Shown: piece by piece, positions 1 to 25,736 of the stretch
How positions within the stretch are numbered: position 1 is the stretch's first letter
How the letters are laid out: each line of letters starts with the position of its first letter
Virus record (IMG/VR): IMGVR_UViG_3300001750_000008
Span: 1-25,736 of that record
Origin: a virus
Length of the DNA: 25,736 nt
Strand: one strand, 5' to 3'
Position numbers and translations under genes: made by a program
The notes under the pieces: generated by a model
Seen by the model: only the letters and a program-made list of their open reading frames with translations
Told to the model about the DNA's origin: nothing
The model's database searches: none

Positions 1-1922
1 TCATCCTTGTTTTTATATAGCCCTAATGCCGTTCTAAAACCCGTGTGAGTATAAGGCCCATCAGCGTTATTATTTCCTGTGTGAACCCCAAAGAAGCTGA
101 ATCCCTCGATCTCCATTAAGGCTATGACCCTATATGTTCCGGTAGGTGCTGCGCTTTTTATCGTTATATTGGTATTGTCTACAGCAACATACTGAGTAGC
201 GGTTTCTGCTTCTGCCGGTGATGGATCGATCCTGATGTTATAGTTTGATGTCAACCCGGGATGGGTCAAATACAAACTGCCGGCGATATTTGTTAATTTT
301 GCAATTCCAACCTGCGCAGAATCCAAACCATGGGCCTGATTCGTATCTGATCCGGTTGTATGAGATATCTCAGTGGTAAAGACGCCGTAACCGGATTCAA
401 CCCTTAAAGACACTCCTGTATAGGTATCACCACTCACTAAGGTTTGTTTTGTTCCTTTGGCTGCGTCCGTGTCAAAATGTATCGAGTTAGTGGGGTCGTC
501 TGAAAATCTTACATCCCAGGATTCAAGGTTGGATAAGTTTTTATATATGTCTATCCAGGCACTCCAACTCGAACGAGCAGCAGCTATGTTTGATTCGATT
601 GCCGAGCCTAAAGCTGAATCAGTAACACAGCCTGTTTTAGAGTCGGAAATGAGTGGGTCGGATATATTATCCGCGCACAGCGCTTTAAATCCTGTGGGCG
701 GGGAATAGGTGAAACCGAGTTGACCGAAATTTAATGTTCCTCCTGAGCCCTGTCCTACACCAAAAAATAAATCATCAGGAAGTGAAGAATACATGATGCC
801 TTGCGAAACATTGTTCTTATACATGGTAATTGTTTTAGCATCTGAGTCAACCGCAATACCAATTACATCACCTGCTCCAAAAGTCAGGCCATAAGAACCA
901 TCTGCGCCAATATGATATTTTACAGCACTACCGTGATAAGTCCAGCCATAGGCATCTGATCCAAGATAAGTTGCTACTGTTCTTTTTTCTGTACCCACTC
1001 CAACCATTTCAGTTCCAGCAGCAGCGGTATATTCGGCATACCATTTCCCACTATTTGGTATCCGCATTGTGCTCAATCCAGCGAGCACAGAATCAGCCTT
1101 TAAATTACCGTCTAAAAGATCAGTTACACCCAAAGCTAATTCATTAATAACTGGATAATTATTTGTCGGTGTATCTATAACCTGATTATCGGTAGTGAAA
1201 TAATAATCGGTGAAGTCGTTGCCCCTACCGGATTGATCTTCGCCAAAATGAGATGGGTTAGAATAATCAAGATAAAAACTGTTTGCACCATACGTCCCTG
1301 TGTATTTTTTTGGTATCCATATATTGTTTTTACTTTCGCCAAATGATGACGGCAAAAGTTGTTGGCCTGTGATAAGTTGAGTTTCAGCCATATATCCTAA
1401 AAAATAATTTCCAGAGTAGTTTCTTCCAACATAATGCGCCTGTTGCCATCCAACCCCACCATTATAATCCTGAGTTACATAATTACTATAAGAAAATTCA
1501 GATTCTACTCCATTAATATATACTTTTACTCTATCAGCAGCTGTCGCCAATGTAGTATCGACAGAAATTACGAGATTATACCAATTTGTTATATCACGAA
1601 ATAATGGTGCTGTGTAATAACGACCACTACTACCACCACTAAATTGGATATCTATATAATTATTACTACTAATAAATATATTATCATAACTCGTCGGAGC
1701 AGTTGTCCCAAGTAAACAATATGTATCATTTAAAAAATAAACTTCACCTCCTCGTTTAAACCATGTTGAAAATGTCCACTTTTTTCTATCTAAATTAGTT
1801 TCAGTCATTGATCTACGTAAATATGCCAGATTAACATTTCTAGTAAACATACAAGCACAATAAATTTTGTAGTCATAAAAAGAAAGTTCATCATCAGCAG
1901 GTATTAAGAAAAAAGGAAACAT
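1..1922 (-). CDS. Lectin-like tail fibre / receptor-binding protein (LamG + SPRY + start of DUF7483-like), 3' end outside window
   Basis: I translated this frame by hand from the ATG at 1922. It stays open for 640 codons to the window edge with no stop. Residues about 45-195 look like a LamG/concanavalin-A-like jelly roll (WTFSTWFKRGG, WYNLVISVD, DRVKVYINGVE). Residues about 230-420 match a SPRY-type domain as found in phage fibre proteins (GKWYAEY, GDVIGIAVDSDAKTITMYKN, FSPPTGFKAL-like YSPPTGFKALCADN). From about 600 the pattern FFGVHTGNNNADGPYTHTGFR resembles the start of the phage DUF7483 module. The start codon overlaps the stop of the upstream fibre gene (TAATG), so the two are translationally coupled. 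The likely role is adhesion to host surface glycans at the virion tip. The 1400-1900 part is visibly AT-richer than the neighbouring structural genes, as is common in exchanged host-range genes. The C-terminal part, which would decide the exact type, is not in the window. Confidence 0.82.
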   Translation of the reverse strand, partial: MFPFFLIPADDELSFYDYKIYCACMFTRNVNLAYLRRSMTETNLDRKKWTFSTWFKRGGEVYFLNDTYCLLGTTAPTSYDNIFISSNNYIDIQFSGGSSGRYYTAPLFRDITNWYNLVISVDTTLATAADRVKVYINGVESEFSYSNYVTQDYNGGVGWQQAHYVGRNYSGNYFLGYMAETQLITGQQLLPSSFGESKNNIWIPKKYTGTYGANSFYLDYSNPSHFGEDQSGRGNDFTDYYFTTDNQVIDTPTNNYPVINELALGVTDLLDGNLKADSVLAGLSTMRIPNSGKWYAEYTAAAGTEMVGVGTEKRTVATYLGSDAYGWTYHGSAVKYHIGADGSYGLTFGAGDVIGIAVDSDAKTITMYKNNVSQGIMYSSLPDDLFFGVGQGSGGTLNFGQLGFTYSPPTGFKALCADNISDPLISDSKTGCVTDSALGSAIESNIAAARSSWSAWIDIYKNLSNLESWDVRFSDDPTNSIHFDTDAAKGTKQTLVSGDTYTGVSLRVESGYGVFTTEISHTTGSDTNQAHGLDSAQVGIAKLTNIAGSLYLTHPGLTSNYNIRIDPSPAEAETATQYVAVDNTNITIKSAAPTGTYRVIALMEIEGFSFFGVHTGNNNADGPYTHTGFRTALGLYKNKD

Positions 1923-3325
1923 TAGTTTGCACTCCAGATTCTGCGAGCATATACGTTGCTACCCACATTCCAGTATAAATATTGGGTTACTTCATTGATC
2001 CCGGTGTTTACTGCAAAAGGATGATTAGCAAAATTATAAACGGCGGGTTGGGTGTATGAAAAACCTCCTGCATTGGTAACCACGACTACAACAGCATAAT
2101 TTTTATCAAGCCCGGTAGGAGCGCTGAGGACTGCGTTTTCAGTCAAAGATAGCGTTCTGAGTGGCCCGGCTGACATATCTAAAGCAACATTACCAGTAGA
2201 AATTGAAAGAGCAGACGATGGCATGGCTTGAGTTTTTGACCACTCATTATTGAGATTCAAAAAACCTGCATTTGAAACAAGGGCTGCTGCATCCGCACTT
2301 CCAAGAACCGTTCGCATGAATGATGTAAGGGTAGTCAATGCCATAGCTGCAGCACCGGTGAAATATGCCAGTTGGTTTGCGGATGGAGATAGGCCGGCCA
2401 GGGCATTTAAAATCGTGCTTGCTTGTTGAGCATCGAGATTTGATCTTGCTGCTGGTGCATCAACACTGCCAAGCAGCGTCCGCATAAATGATGTCAACGA
2501 GGTCAAGGCAACTGCCGCAGCACCGGTAAAATACATCAATCTATCTGCCGATGGAGATAAACCGGATATGGCCGTTAGGATGGCATTGAGTTGTTGAGCG
2601 TCAAGATTTGTTCTCGCTGCTAATGCATCCGCACTGCCGAGCAAAGTTCGCATGAAAGCCGTCAATGATGTCAACGCCATTGCCGCAGCACCGGTGAAAT
2701 ATGCCAGTTGGTTTGCGGATGGAGATAGGCCGGCCAGGGCATTTAAAATCGTGCTTGCCTGCTGTGCATCAAGGTTTGTTCTTGCATCTAAGGCGTTCTC
2801 ATCTTTTAATAGATTCTGCATAAAAGCACTTACAAGCAGGCCACCAGCCGAATATACATCGATTGTTTCAAGTCCATCCCCTGCGGCGTTAAATCTTACA
2901 AGATGCAATGGAACTGGATCGGGAAAATCAAAATTTGAATACACTGATGTTAAAGCAAATTTTATTGCCCTTCCAAAGGTCTCAGCAACCTCCTGATCCT
3001 TGAATGTGAGTTTATCGAATCCGCTTTCAACCAGCTCGGCGTCAAAGTCATGTGAATTGAGAAGATTCAAAAGCTGGTCGGATGGTGTTACCCGGGTAAT
3101 ATGCAGTTTCTCAGTTGATGAAGGTGCCGTATCCATAACGACTTCATCATTAACCACATTATAATCAACGCCTAATGTCTGGAGCGTTTTCCCACCCGTG
3201 ACGGTATCAATCAGGTTAACAACCAGGTCGCCGGAAGCTATATAGTCAAAAGTCACAGGGAAGTTTGTAGTACTTCCATTTCCTGTGTATAATTCAGGAG
3301 TAAAGCTTTGCGCCGTGACACTCAT
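1922..3325 (-). CDS. Tail fibre protein with T7 gp17-type N-terminal anchor and three 56-residue repeats
   Basis: The product has 467 residues. Residues about 1-140 have the phage T7-type tail-fibre N-terminal pattern (YTGNGSTTNFPVTFDYI, then a beta-rich segment with LGVDYNV and ITRVTP), known to attach fibres to the tail adaptor/nozzle. Residues 168-335 are three tandem 56-residue repeats (FMRTLLGSAD, ARTNLDAQQ, GLSPSA, YFTGAAAMALTSLTS) plus a fourth partial copy to about 354, probably a trimeric shaft. The C-terminal 110 residues are beta-rich (NYAVVVVVTNAGGFSYTQ) and end in IWSAN. The ATG follows the upstream stop directly (TAAATG) with an AAGGAG Shine-Dalgarno. The stop overlaps the next fibre gene. 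No intramolecular chaperone or enzymatic motif is visible, so the adjacent lectin-like protein may supply most receptor contact. Confidence 0.85.
   Translation of the reverse strand: MSVTAQSFTPELYTGNGSTTNFPVTFDYIASGDLVVNLIDTVTGGKTLQTLGVDYNVVNDEVVMDTAPSSTEKLHITRVTPSDQLLNLLNSHDFDAELVESGFDKLTFKDQEVAETFGRAIKFALTSVYSNFDFPDPVPLHLVRFNAAGDGLETIDVYSAGGLLVSAFMQNLLKDENALDARTNLDAQQASTILNALAGLSPSANQLAYFTGAAAMALTSLTAFMRTLLGSADALAARTNLDAQQLNAILTAISGLSPSADRLMYFTGAAAVALTSLTSFMRTLLGSVDAPAARSNLDAQQASTILNALAGLSPSANQLAYFTGAAAMALTTLTSFMRTVLGSADAAALVSNAGFLNLNNEWSKTQAMPSSALSISTGNVALDMSAGPLRTLSLTENAVLSAPTGLDKNYAVVVVVTNAGGFSYTQPAVYNFANHPFAVNTGINEVTQYLYWNVGSNVYARRIWSAN
2264..2824 (-). repeat. 168-bp tandem repeat, 3 copies plus partial, in the tail fibre gene
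   Basis: Copy 1 is 2824-2657, copy 2 is 2656-2489, copy 3 is 2488-2321 and a partial fourth is 2320-2264. Each unit codes 56 residues and keeps the frame. Copies 1 and 3 share an uninterrupted identical stretch of 74 bp (2685-2758 and 2349-2422, exactly 336 bp apart), whereas the middle copy has diverged. Confidence 0.93.
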
Positions 3326-6300
3326 TTATCTTCTCCTTGATCTTTTCTGTTCGCTGAAAAACAACCTTGAAAAATCCTCGGTTTCACCGGTCATCAAATC
3401 AATCATACCATCCACAGTAATGATAAGCTGGTTTGATGGTAATCCCCACCAGTAACCGATTACTTTCGTGGCCGGTTTTATAATTTTGCCTAATTCTTTT
3501 TCTTCGGCCCAAATAGCCTTATTCAGTCTTTTGATTTCCTCTCCAAATCCCACGGCCGGACTCATTGTATACCCATAATCTTTGATCATCCCGGAAACTA
3601 TATCACGCACAAACGGCAAACCGCCGGTACCGTACGATACAAGGTCTTTCCACCATTCATCATCTTCCGGTAATCTTCGCCGGTTTATGATGCCGCCGAG
3701 TATGGACGGGAATATCAGTATCCACCAATAGGCTTTCATTGCCTGTAATGTATTGATGTTTCCAAGCCGATACATCTGTGCTGTCTTCATCATTTGATTT
3801 TGAAACACTGAAAAAAACGTGTAGAACATCGTAAACAGTTTTTTCAATTCACCGCCTCTTTGAATCCCGGCCAGGTCTTTAGGTGATGCTGCGGGCTGTG
3901 TTTGCCGAACCAGTTTGTCCGCGTGATCCACGGCTTTATCTTGATTATTATTATACCGGTCCATACCTTCCTGATATCCTGCCAACCAGGTCGGCATGGT
4001 CGCCACTGCATCCATAAAGCCGATCATACCAAAGAATGCTTCCCGGGCAGTTTCCAAACCCGGTCTATGGGTCGGATCAAATTCTCGGGCAAACTGGGCA
4101 AGCTCACGGTCCCATTGACGCTTCCTGTTACGGATCATGGCTGAATTTTCTTTTATAAACTCTGCCGTTTTTCGTGGATGTGCGTAAAACCTTGACATTG
4201 CCCTTAATGTTCGGCCTAAACCCACTTCTTTAATGGTTTGGGTCAAAGACAGCGCCTGTTTTGCGGCTACAGAGAATTTTGCACCAAGTGCAACCACCGT
4301 TGTTCCCCTGCGGATCCTGCCCAATATTTTTTCAAGATTGCATGTGGGTTCAGGCTTTGGCCGGGCCACATATTTTAACCATGGCATTAGCTGGAGGTAA
4401 TTCTCTTTTCCGATCGTGCCTTCTACCATGTGCCGGTACACCTTATCGGCAATAATTTGCTGCGCGTTTCTGATCGGGATTTGATGAGAAATATTGTGCA
4501 CCACATCAGTAACGTGTTTTGCAATGGTAGAAAATTTAAGCAGGGGCGGTAATTTTCCGCCTTTCCTTGCTTTCATATGCCCGGCTTCCACTTTTGGCCG
4601 TGTATATGCTGACGCACTGTGATCCAACATATCCTTTTCAGAGGCGTGCTTTGCCACCAAGAAGGACAATTCCCGATCGAAAATTAAAGGAAAATAATTC
4701 CCTCCCACCTTTTTCAGATCCACACCGGTCAGATCTTTATGTACCGTGTTTAATTCCGGGTATAATTCATCAATAATATTCCATATGTTAATAACGAGCT
4801 GCCGTTCATCTTCATTCAGGGTATTCACGATTTCCTGTATCTGCTGATCTTCCCATCCGTACCCTGCCCGTAATGCTTTCAGGTTTCCTTCATTTCCTGA
4901 GTTTAAGGCAACCATGACCACTTCTTCTTTCGTCAACGGTTTTTTCATCCAGGGCAGACGGATTTTTTCAAAAGCCCACTTTCGGTTAAAACCTTTAAAG
5001 GCAGTACGAAGCTTTTTCCATACATCTTCGCCTAATTTAAACTCATGGTCTTCCGCTTTTTTGATCCATTGGAAAATTTGATAATTGGGACCGTCATCTT
5101 TCCACCCATCCAGCCATTGAAAAAGAAATTCAGCTTTTCTGAGTTGTGCCAGAAATTCCTTTGAACCCTGGCTCATCGATTGCCACCATCCCATCTTCCG
5201 TTGAGACGGAGTTTCAATATCTTCGGATATGCCGGCACTACCATGGACCTCGTACCCGCGTTTAGTCATTTCACCGATCGTCGATCTCAATTCCCGTTCT
5301 TTTTCAGCTTTGATCAACTTGCCTTCAGTTCTACCCATATGAGCCAGCATGTCTGCAATATCCGCAACGATTTGCCTTTCATCCGGTGTAAGAGGTTTGC
5401 GAAAGCCCTTAATATTTCTCATTTGTACCGGCCGCATGGTAAGTAGGTCTTTTATGGTATCAACAGTCCATTCATTATTTTCATATCGTTGCTCTAAGAA
5501 TGCCTCCAGGTTCTTTTCGGGAGTAACCTGAAACGACGGTGGGACATAATAATACTCCTGGAGAAAATGTGTGATCTGCTCTCTATATTCCGGAGGTATG
5601 GACTTTGACCGCATGTATCTGTTCATACGGTTATCGATGATAGTCTTTTTTCTCTGTTCCTTGATATTTCCCCGGATCTTCCGGACCCTCTCTCGTTGCT
5701 GTTCCCTCAATTTCAGTGTTTTTTCCAAGGCCCCTTCTTTCTTACCCTCACGGAAGGCTTTACGGGCTAAAATCTCATCATGTTTAAAATCCTGAACGAG
5801 TTTCCGATAATCTTCATCCTTGATCTGTCCAGTCTGCTCTCGGATGGTCTTTTTAAGATCTTTTCGCGCTTTCGACTTTTTCTTTCCGAGCATCTGGTTG
5901 AGGATATTGATTTCTTCATCAATGATTTCCTGGTACGATTCTGCATTCTCGTAATCGAGGCCACGCTCATATTCCATCCAGAGATCGTCATTGTATCTTT
6001 GTATGGCTTCCTTTTTTGTGGGATGATTAAGGATGTCCTGGATTAATTCATCCGTATTATAATAGTTGTATTGAGTGGCGAAGAAGTCTGCATTTAAACC
6101 GTTCTCAGATATGAGTCCTGGCATTCTGGAAATAAGATCTCTAATATGATCCTTATCGTAAAGATCGTACAGGTCTGACAGCTTCAATCCTCCGGAAGCT
6201 TTCAAATCATCCATCATCAAATAAAAACCATCATTCTGAATTGAGTCTATGGCCTCTTTAAGGAATGCAGCTTTAAGTTTTTTCTCATCCTTCTTGCGCT

Positions 6301-24478: not shown

Positions 24479-24784
24479 CTACTTCACAGCCTGAGTTCGT
24501 TGATTCGCCACAGCCGTTAGATCTGAGCTGTGAGTTAATAACCAGAATCCCTTACGGCCCTTCTGTTTGATCGCCACCACAGGGATCTTGTCTGACTTAT
24601 CAGCCACTTTCTTTGCAGCATCCCAAACATTCACAATCGCAACTTTCTTTGAATGCTTACACTGAACATGCAGAAAATCATGATTAATATCGCTCGCATT
24701 TTTTTCCTGCATGGGTCCGGTACGTCTGCAGCCAAAGAAACCGGCCACAACTCTTTCAAACTTTTTCCAGGTTTTATCAGGCAT
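24479..24784 (-). CDS. PDDEXK-type (Holliday-junction-resolvase-like) endonuclease, 101 aa
   Basis: The pattern E10 (KKFERVVAGFFGCRRTG), D32 (NASDINHDF) and Q41-x-K43 (LHVQCKHSKKV) is the catalytic core of small PDDEXK nucleases, with Q in place of the usual E as in several families. A final beta part (IPVVAIKQKGRKGFWLLT) fits the fold. Its length is like phage resolvase-like enzymes that process recombination or replication intermediates before packaging. The ATG at 24784, with GGAGGG upstream, overlaps the end of the replication gene; a TTG at 24790 is the less likely alternative. Confidence 0.7.
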   Translation of the reverse strand: MPDKTWKKFERVVAGFFGCRRTGPMQEKNASDINHDFLHVQCKHSKKVAIVNVWDAAKKVADKSDKIPVVAIKQKGRKGFWLLTHSSDLTAVANQRTQAVK

Positions 24785-25736
24785 CCTCAAACCCTCCCCA
24801 CATACCCTGCGTTAATTTTTTCAGATCCGGAGCTTTCATATTTTTCAGTTTCTCATGGATCTTGAGCGCCTCTTTCTCATTCCAGTTCCCATTTTTGGTT
24901 TTCATAATCGCCTCAACATATGACCAGGGTTTATCAATATCGTTCCACTGTAGAATTAAACCCTTCAAAGATTCTTCAATCGCTCCTGGATGACCACGGC
25001 TGTTTACGTTTTTTTGAACCCACTGGTATGGGTTGAACGGCCTCCCCTCTTTTGGTGTTAGTTTTAATATTTTTTCACAGGATGATTTGATCGATTTGAA
25101 ATATTCACCAACCTGTGTTGAAAAGTGTTTTGATTTTTTTATGTCAGGAATTTCGAAAGGAAGATCGGCGTCAGCCGCCTCCGAAGGAGGCTGTTTTTCA
25201 GCTTCGGATTTTTGGTCGGAATTCGATATATTACGTAGTAATATATCTCTAGCAGAAGCAAAAGCAAAAGCAGGGCTAGCTTTTTTGGCTGTGACACTAC
25301 CCGTGACATTTGTGTGACACTTGCGTGACATTGCCCTTTTTTTGCGTTGTTTTTTCTTCCTCAAATTGTCGGAAAGCCTTCTGGCTGTAGTGCGCCACAC
25401 CCTTCGGTTAATGATGTGACATTCCTGTGACATCAACCGTGACATTTCCGCGACGTCGCTGTGACATTTTTGAAAAATGGGGTCAAAATTTGGATCAAAA
25501 AATGAAAAATCACAGAACTCATGCTCGAACGCTTCCTCGATAAAAAGGCAGATTTCGGCCTCAGTTGCCCCCCCGGTCATTTTAATTATTTTTGACACCT
25601 GGCAATCAATTCTCCCCTGCTCGTTTGCTATCCACATATGACATAAAAGATCGATCCAGATCCCCTTGGTGGAGGCACTGCATAACCTCAATTCGGTATC
25701 TGAAAGCCAGTCCTTCACATAAAACGGCATCGATGG
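24777..25736 (-). CDS. DUF1376-like phage replication protein with embedded repeat array, 5' end outside window
   Basis: The block MPFYVKDWLSDTELRLCSASTKGIWIDLLCHMW is typical of the DUF1376-type N-terminal domain of phage replication proteins. This block usually sits some residues into the protein, and the frame is still open (P-S-M) at the right edge, so the true start is probably outside the window. A winged-helix-like segment (GRIDCQVSKIIKMTGGATEAEICLFIEEAFEHEF) follows. Then comes a basic, low-complexity linker (residues about 88-150) whose DNA carries the GTGACAT array, and a C-terminal helical part (FNPYQWVQKNVNSRGHPGAIEESLKGL, WSYVEAIMKTKNGNWNEKEA), perhaps for recruiting the host helicase. 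The layout parallels lambda O: DNA-binding N-terminus, origin in the middle, partner-binding C-terminus. Confidence 0.75.
   Translation of the reverse strand, partial: PSMPFYVKDWLSDTELRLCSASTKGIWIDLLCHMWIANEQGRIDCQVSKIIKMTGGATEAEICLFIEEAFEHEFCDFSFFDPNFDPIFQKCHSDVAEMSRLMSQECHIINRRVWRTTARRLSDNLRKKKQRKKRAMSRKCHTNVTGSVTAKKASPAFAFASARDILLRNISNSDQKSEAEKQPPSEAADADLPFEIPDIKKSKHFSTQVGEYFKSIKSSCEKILKLTPKEGRPFNPYQWVQKNVNSRGHPGAIEESLKGLILQWNDIDKPWSYVEAIMKTKNGNWNEKEALKIHEKLKNMKAPDLKKLTQGMWGGFEDA
25177..25198 (+). terminator. Terminator-like hairpin on the antisense strand
   Basis: GCCTCC (25177-25182), loop GAA, GGAGGC (25186-25191), then TGTTTTT. It reads in the plus direction, opposite to the replication gene that contains it, so it could stop antisense transcription. 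The 6-bp stem is short. Confidence 0.35.
25225..25247. repeat. Perfect AT-rich palindrome beside the repeat array
   Basis: GATATATTAC (25225-25234) and GTAATATATC (25238-25247) are exact complements around a 3-base spacer. It lies 44 bp from the first GTGACA repeat, with a purine-rich tract (AGCAGAAGCAAAAGCAAAAG) between. It lies inside the replication gene. Confidence 0.9.
25291..25467. repeat. Iteron-like GTGACAY array: candidate replication origin
   Basis: Copies start at 25291, 25303, 25314, 25325 and, after a gap of about 85 bp, at 25416, 25427, 25439, 25450 (degenerate GCGACGT) and 25461. Spacing is 11-12 bp, one helical turn. Because 11 is not a multiple of three, the copies fall in different codon phases and give different residues (MSR, KCHT, NVT, SVT), so the repetition is kept at DNA level. 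T-tracts lie in the gap. All copies are on one face and in one orientation, as in initiator-binding iterons. Confidence 0.75.

Follow-up and report, generated by a model that had tools for sequence, protein, structure and literature searches.

The DNA analysed here, referred to as the window, comprises 25,736 nucleotides, positions 1 to 25,736 of the IMG/VR virus record IMGVR_UViG_3300001750_000008. The record is 47,625 bp long and classed as linear; its first and last 3631 bases (1–3631 and 43995–47625) match at 99.5%, the two terminal copies differing slightly. Because the record ends overlap, the genome was taken to be about 43,994 bp long and essentially complete. A gene for a replisome-organiser-like initiator occupies 24777–25736 on the minus strand, 319 amino acids of it in the window; it starts just beyond the window, at a probable GTG near position 25769 of the record. 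Upstream of it and in the same direction lies a Cro-like HTH gene (27371–27586), from which a CI-like HTH gene diverges, with an integrase gene further on; because of these genes, we regard the virus as a temperate phage whose early operon is lambda-like. No gene near the initiator gene was recognised as encoding a helicase loader. Directly after the initiator gene comes an ORF of 103 amino acids (window 24479–24790, minus strand) with no Pfam match, which gave us the impression of a small nuclease or resolvase. Beyond the window, the intergenic DNA upstream of the initiator gene contains four copies of GGTTAAC at exact 10-bp steps (record 26866–26902; L002:2867–2903). This is the genome's second most clustered word apart from A/T-rich ones, and possibly marks an operator or an accessory array.

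A winged-helix protein related to phage replisome organisers

AlphaFold2 predicted a winged-helix domain (residues 5–107) prolonged by a long basic helix (109–141), disorder from about residue 142–144 to 200, and an all-helical C-terminal domain (203–316). On the minus strand, the winged-helix domain and basic helix (residues 5–141) are encoded by 25308–25718, the linker (about residues 142–200) by 25131–25307 and the C-terminal domain by 24780–25124. The pLDDT was mostly 80–96 in the N-terminal model (residues 5–141), except in the wing, and about 41–50 in the linker.

The earlier note had called this a replication-protein gene, and the comparisons agree: its product, which has this layout, is related to phage replisome organisers. 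An iterative profile search among the fetched loci grouped it with proteins matching Phage_rep_org_N. Since that search takes in linker positions, the independent check was a profile–profile comparison (hhalign) of the N-terminal domain only with Phage_rep_org_N members, which gave a probability of 93% over 53 columns. The N-terminal domain also matched phrog_3992, 'primosomal protein', in PHROGs (E=0.0024), and the window's protein had a weak tblastn match to the 'replisome organizer' of Bacteroides phage Versailles. The gathering threshold of Phage_rep_org_N (PF09681) was not reached: the window's protein (P0001) had no significant match in Pfam, to this family or to the RepA_N domain, and one A1 member matched weakly (E=0.037). 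A fold search returned winged-helix matches only, all weak (best E=0.47); the third-ranked, 4pt7, titled only 'Structure of initiator', was not significant.

The C-terminal domain, which probably contacts the replication machinery, had no Pfam match and is 35–50% identical to those of L012, L013/L272 and L212. A DnaD-like C-terminal domain (DnaD/DnaB_2, PF07261), considered on account of the helical layout, found no Pfam or profile support.

Two clusters of repeats in the wing loop and the linker

Two clusters of GTGACAY lie within the initiator gene. Cluster 1 (25291–25331) has exact copies at 25291, 25303, 25314 and 25325, in steps of 12, 11 and 11 bp. It encodes residues 134–147, where the basic helix ends and the linker begins, a position shared by most relatives. 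Cluster 2 (25416–25467) has exact copies at 25416, 25427, 25439 and 25461 (steps between exact copies of 11, 12 and 22 bp) and, in register, the decayed copy GCGACGT at 25450–25456. It encodes residues 88–105, the wing loop and its edge, between strands 74–77 and 103–107 of the AlphaFold2 model; the array of L212 is placed in the same way. These positions verify the description from which we started, eight exact copies and one degenerate one in two clusters at 11–12-bp steps and in one orientation. All copies are on the plus strand, antisense to the gene; none was found in the opposite orientation. The peptide pieces that they encode are KCH, MS, ECH, MS, KCH, NVT and SVT.

The array is placed in the coding stretches most tolerant of change, the wing loop and the interdomain linker. 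This tolerance would account for there being two clusters, as the gap of about 90 bp between them encodes a conserved strand and the basic helix. The flank at 25468–25520 is a candidate unwinding element; it is 72% A+T compared with 58% in the genome, an unremarkable value at about the 93rd percentile.

Chance and peptide repetition

In the whole record, GTGACAY occurs 11 times on the forward and 0 times on the reverse strand, and 8 of the 11 are in the array. Two of the other three, at 3315 and 47309, are one site present twice in the overlapping ends, so that the unique genome holds only two copies outside the array; the motif is neither equally frequent nor equally phased elsewhere, as the earlier note had expected of an origin. 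The Markov expectation is 0.026 GTGACA per 177 bp, and in a genome-wide comparison of hexamer clustering GTGACA came first after A/T runs. A window-wide shuffle test was only mildly unusual (9 matches for 4.5 expected), because the signal is one of clustering and not of total count. GC skew, with a broad minimum at about 26–31 kb, tracks gene orientation and is therefore uninformative as an origin marker.

The repeats could in principle be those of a peptide, in a low-complexity linker, or the product of chance, and many 12-bp GTGACA matches in viral contigs are indeed in-frame protein repeats. Against this, the copies are spread over all three codon phases, which, as had been argued beforehand, protein repetition does not explain. 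Furthermore, when the array peptide was recoded synonymously 100,000 times according to the codon usage of the phage, seven copies of GTGACA (equivalently TGTCAC) were obtained twice and eight never. The words of relatives also drift in concert across phases (see below). The recoding test and the concordance of words within genes rule out peptide repetition and chance, to which we attach practically no probability.

Relatives found by the DNA pattern

Viral contigs were scanned for three GTGACA at exact 11-bp steps, with the reversed word as a control; an initial scan that allowed 12-bp spacing had returned many codon-phase protein repeats and was narrowed accordingly. The pattern was present in at least 119 stretches, compared with 43 for the reversed word in a complete scan. 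Where arrays among these at least 119 stretches lay in ORFs of at least 150 amino acids, they were antisense to the ORF in 37 of 37 cases (9 of 17 in the control); 37 is an upper figure, since a small number of ORFs in this set are unlikely to be genuine genes. Most array-bearing ORFs have the replisome-organiser layout, the array usually coming right after a winged-helix-like N-terminal domain. L212 and L271 are full-length homologues of the window's protein; in both, the GTGACA array is in the wing and encodes a different peptide. L099 carries GTGACA arrays at both cluster places, again with a different peptide.

In 29 arrays, the additional GTGAC spacings were 11 bp in 25 cases, 10 bp in 7, 12 bp in 7 and 22–23 bp in 9, a count that leaves out the 58 steps forced by the pattern (two 11-bp steps per array). 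For 82 of the 119 stretches listed, the array lay in no long ORF (L020, L031, L032, L049, L055, L081, L084, L102 and others), and several of these have copies on both strands. They are perhaps intergenic origins of other phages.

Concerted drift of the repeat word

A second sample, of 80 loci, was picked solely by the N-terminal 74 residues of the protein, which avoids the bias of a DNA pattern; many of these loci have an array in a fixed 11-bp register. In the nearest subfamily the array falls at nucleotides 322, 333, (344), 355 and 366 from the start of the domain, in a fixed 11-bp register. The repeat words (GTCACG, GTAACG, GTAACC, GTAATG, GTCCAG and GAAACG) vary between genes and agree within a gene, and the peptides shift with them: VTxMSxxCHxxVT, VTxMKxxCNxxVT, VMxMKxxCNxxVM, ETxMKxxRNxxET. 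In 18 distinct arrays, six-base identity was 0.765 for sites within one gene and 0.631 for sites of different genes at equivalent codon positions, whereas at control offsets the between-gene value was always the higher (permutation test, 0 of 2000). The earlier note had proposed checking whether the array is kept as DNA while the coded residues vary; this is what relatives do, the 11-bp register being held while words and residues change, the opposite of a protein segment that is kept without its DNA spacing. This concerted change of word at a kept spacing shows selection on the DNA word rather than on the protein, and is our main evidence for it.

Roughly one in three of the 80 relatives chosen by protein lacked any chain of at least three repeats, and some of the three-copy chains are codon-phase repeats in serine-rich linkers. 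L515 (Desulfobacterota) has a close N-terminal domain and no GTGACA array. Among the matches L515–L523, L521–L523 were rejected as relatives since their sequence reads as an iron-sulphur cluster assembly protein; L520 has an in-gene phased array, three GGATAC at 11 bp. An alignment of twelve diverse N-terminal domains was too variable for use in scanning.

These arrays could be operators rather than origins, through which this protein, or some other regulator of the phage, would autoregulate the early operon or stop transcription, replication starting elsewhere. Phage DNA-binding proteins can act as regulators through the repeats that they bind, and the GGTTAAC copies form a second phased array between the upstream genes. 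However, the array lies about 300–450 bp into the coding region, relatives retain it there under many different words, and its placement and layout fit those of proven in-gene origins (PMC5703833, PMC6316719, PMC7466680). We therefore judge an operator unlikely.

Exchange of N-terminal domain and repeat class

The C-terminal domains of L012 and L013/L272 are, respectively, 50% and 43% identical to that of the window's protein, whereas their N-terminal domains are unrelated to its own. L013/L272, from a Desulfobacterales genome, carries eight GCATGC at 10–11 bp in all three phases (L013:3773–3890). The N-terminal domain and the repeat class are co-inherited, and both swap against a common C-terminal domain. 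This bears on another reading, in which the array serves partition, as a centromere-like site, or binds a host factor, and lies in the gene by happenstance. Plasmid centromeres can consist of short direct repeats spaced by about one turn; yet no ParR- or ParB-like gene was recognised beside the array, and different N-terminal domains of the gene family go with different repeats. Such a site is, in our estimation, even less probable than an operator.

Near-identical N-terminal domains with different words differ chiefly at residues 102–107 of the basic helix. First, L286 (GTAACG) and L291 (GTAACC) differ within residues 1–107 only by R103K and I104V. Second, L286 differs from L290 (GTAATG) by E102D, I104V, R106K and W107F. 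A tentative interpretation, which we hold with limited confidence, is a small exchangeable specificity cassette, in which the word would be read by a few residues of the basic helix next to the array, and helix and array would swap or drift together, the rest of the winged helix remaining constant. Simple linkage of neighbouring codons is a possible alternative to such a reading code. When words were predicted beforehand for new genes, the predictions were right for L419, L423, L427 and L442 and clearly wrong for L433; a strict residue-to-base code, which held only partly in the new genes, was rejected. If the cassette is real, the family would lend itself naturally to the study of a residue-to-base code.

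Discussion

Very probably, in our view, the gene contains an origin of phage replication in which the array serves as the initiator-binding part, and the protein that binds it is the winged-helix, replisome-organiser-like product of this same gene. We observed the array and its statistics, the conservation of its register as DNA despite the change of words and residues, and the exchange of N-terminal domain and array against the C-terminal domain; tandem direct repeats within an initiator coding sequence, kept as DNA, are what characterises an in-gene iteron origin. In the mechanism that we propose, the product would bind the 7-bp GTGACAY sites, whose spacing of about one helical turn (11 bp) would make them all face the same side of the double helix. 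Several monomers might then line up, presumably loading cooperatively, and bend or load the region; the A+T-rich flank would melt, the helical C-terminal domain would recruit a helicase or helicase loader, and replication would start at the array.

Only a minority of environmental phages have a known replication origin. Phage origins become searchable as phase-changing, 11-bp-stepped repeats in replisome-organiser genes, and the array even leaves a peptide shadow usable for searching, CHxxVTxMSxx. This one family supplies numerous natural combinations of an initiator with its origin word, in which the coevolution of a protein with DNA of its own gene can be measured and tested. What is new is the family, the compact 7-bp words at 11-bp steps, their placement in the wing loop, the strict antisense orientation over many phages and the concerted word drift. 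The literature covered, which took in a minority of the subscription papers, held no report of these features and nothing relevant on the repeat words.

In the lambda early operon, the O gene lies downstream of cro. The lambda origin lies within this initiator gene, with iterons and an A+T-rich tract in mid-gene (PMC7466680). Lambda ori/O and the O genes of Stx phages resemble the present locus in their mid-gene iterons and in their place in the early operon past cro; the A+T-rich flank seen here is a candidate counterpart of their tract. They differ in having longer iterons, four in lambda and six in Stx phages, whereas the words here are 7 bp long and recur in 11-bp steps, and half of them lie in the DNA that encodes the wing loop. 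The likeness to lambda drawn by the earlier note, iterons within the initiator gene, is supported. No search, in Pfam and PHROGs included, related the window's protein to lambda O; the note's suggestion of a possibly distinct initiator–origin pair agrees with the word and step lengths and with the protein lying outside the lambda O family.

Phages with PF09681 organisers (SM1, phiEf11, phi11, PH15, phiRgPS_6) have an N-terminal domain related at profile level and GTAACG/GTCACG-type repeats located within the gene as they are here; their repeats are often palindromic (GTAACGTTAC), whereas those of the window are direct only. Linker repeats of GTAACGTTAC or GTCACGTGAC type were seen in replisome organisers of named Gram-positive phages: VEsP-1 (L359), Javan290 (L361), SM1 (L362), PH15 (L364), phi11 (L366), phiRgPS_6 (L367) and phiEf11 (L368).

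By analogy, closer functional parallels than lambda O would be SPP1 gp38, 80alpha ORF20 and the plasmid RepA_N initiators. At SPP1 oriL, the replisome organiser gene of gp38 contains direct repeats and an A+T-rich region (PMC6316719), and in 80alpha an origin was proposed within the replisome organiser gene, ORF20 (PMC5499656); neither protein matched P0001 significantly, and the repeats differ. The winged-helix N-terminal domain of pSK41 RepA_N binds boxes in its own rep gene, where the origin encodes the linker, and the helical C-terminal domain is separate (PMC5703833). In pPR9, the N-terminal domain and origin were exchanged as a block for a phage-type N-terminal domain, the C-terminal domain being kept (PMC5703833). 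The RepA_N systems of pSK41 and pPR9 differ in belonging to plasmids of Firmicutes, in having four Rep boxes with other words and spacing, and in showing no sequence homology to the present protein. In conclusion, the best explanation is that the locus would work like the origins of lambda O, SPP1 gp38 and pSK41 RepA_N, yet stands outside those families, and outside Phage_rep_org_N in Pfam, at family thresholds.
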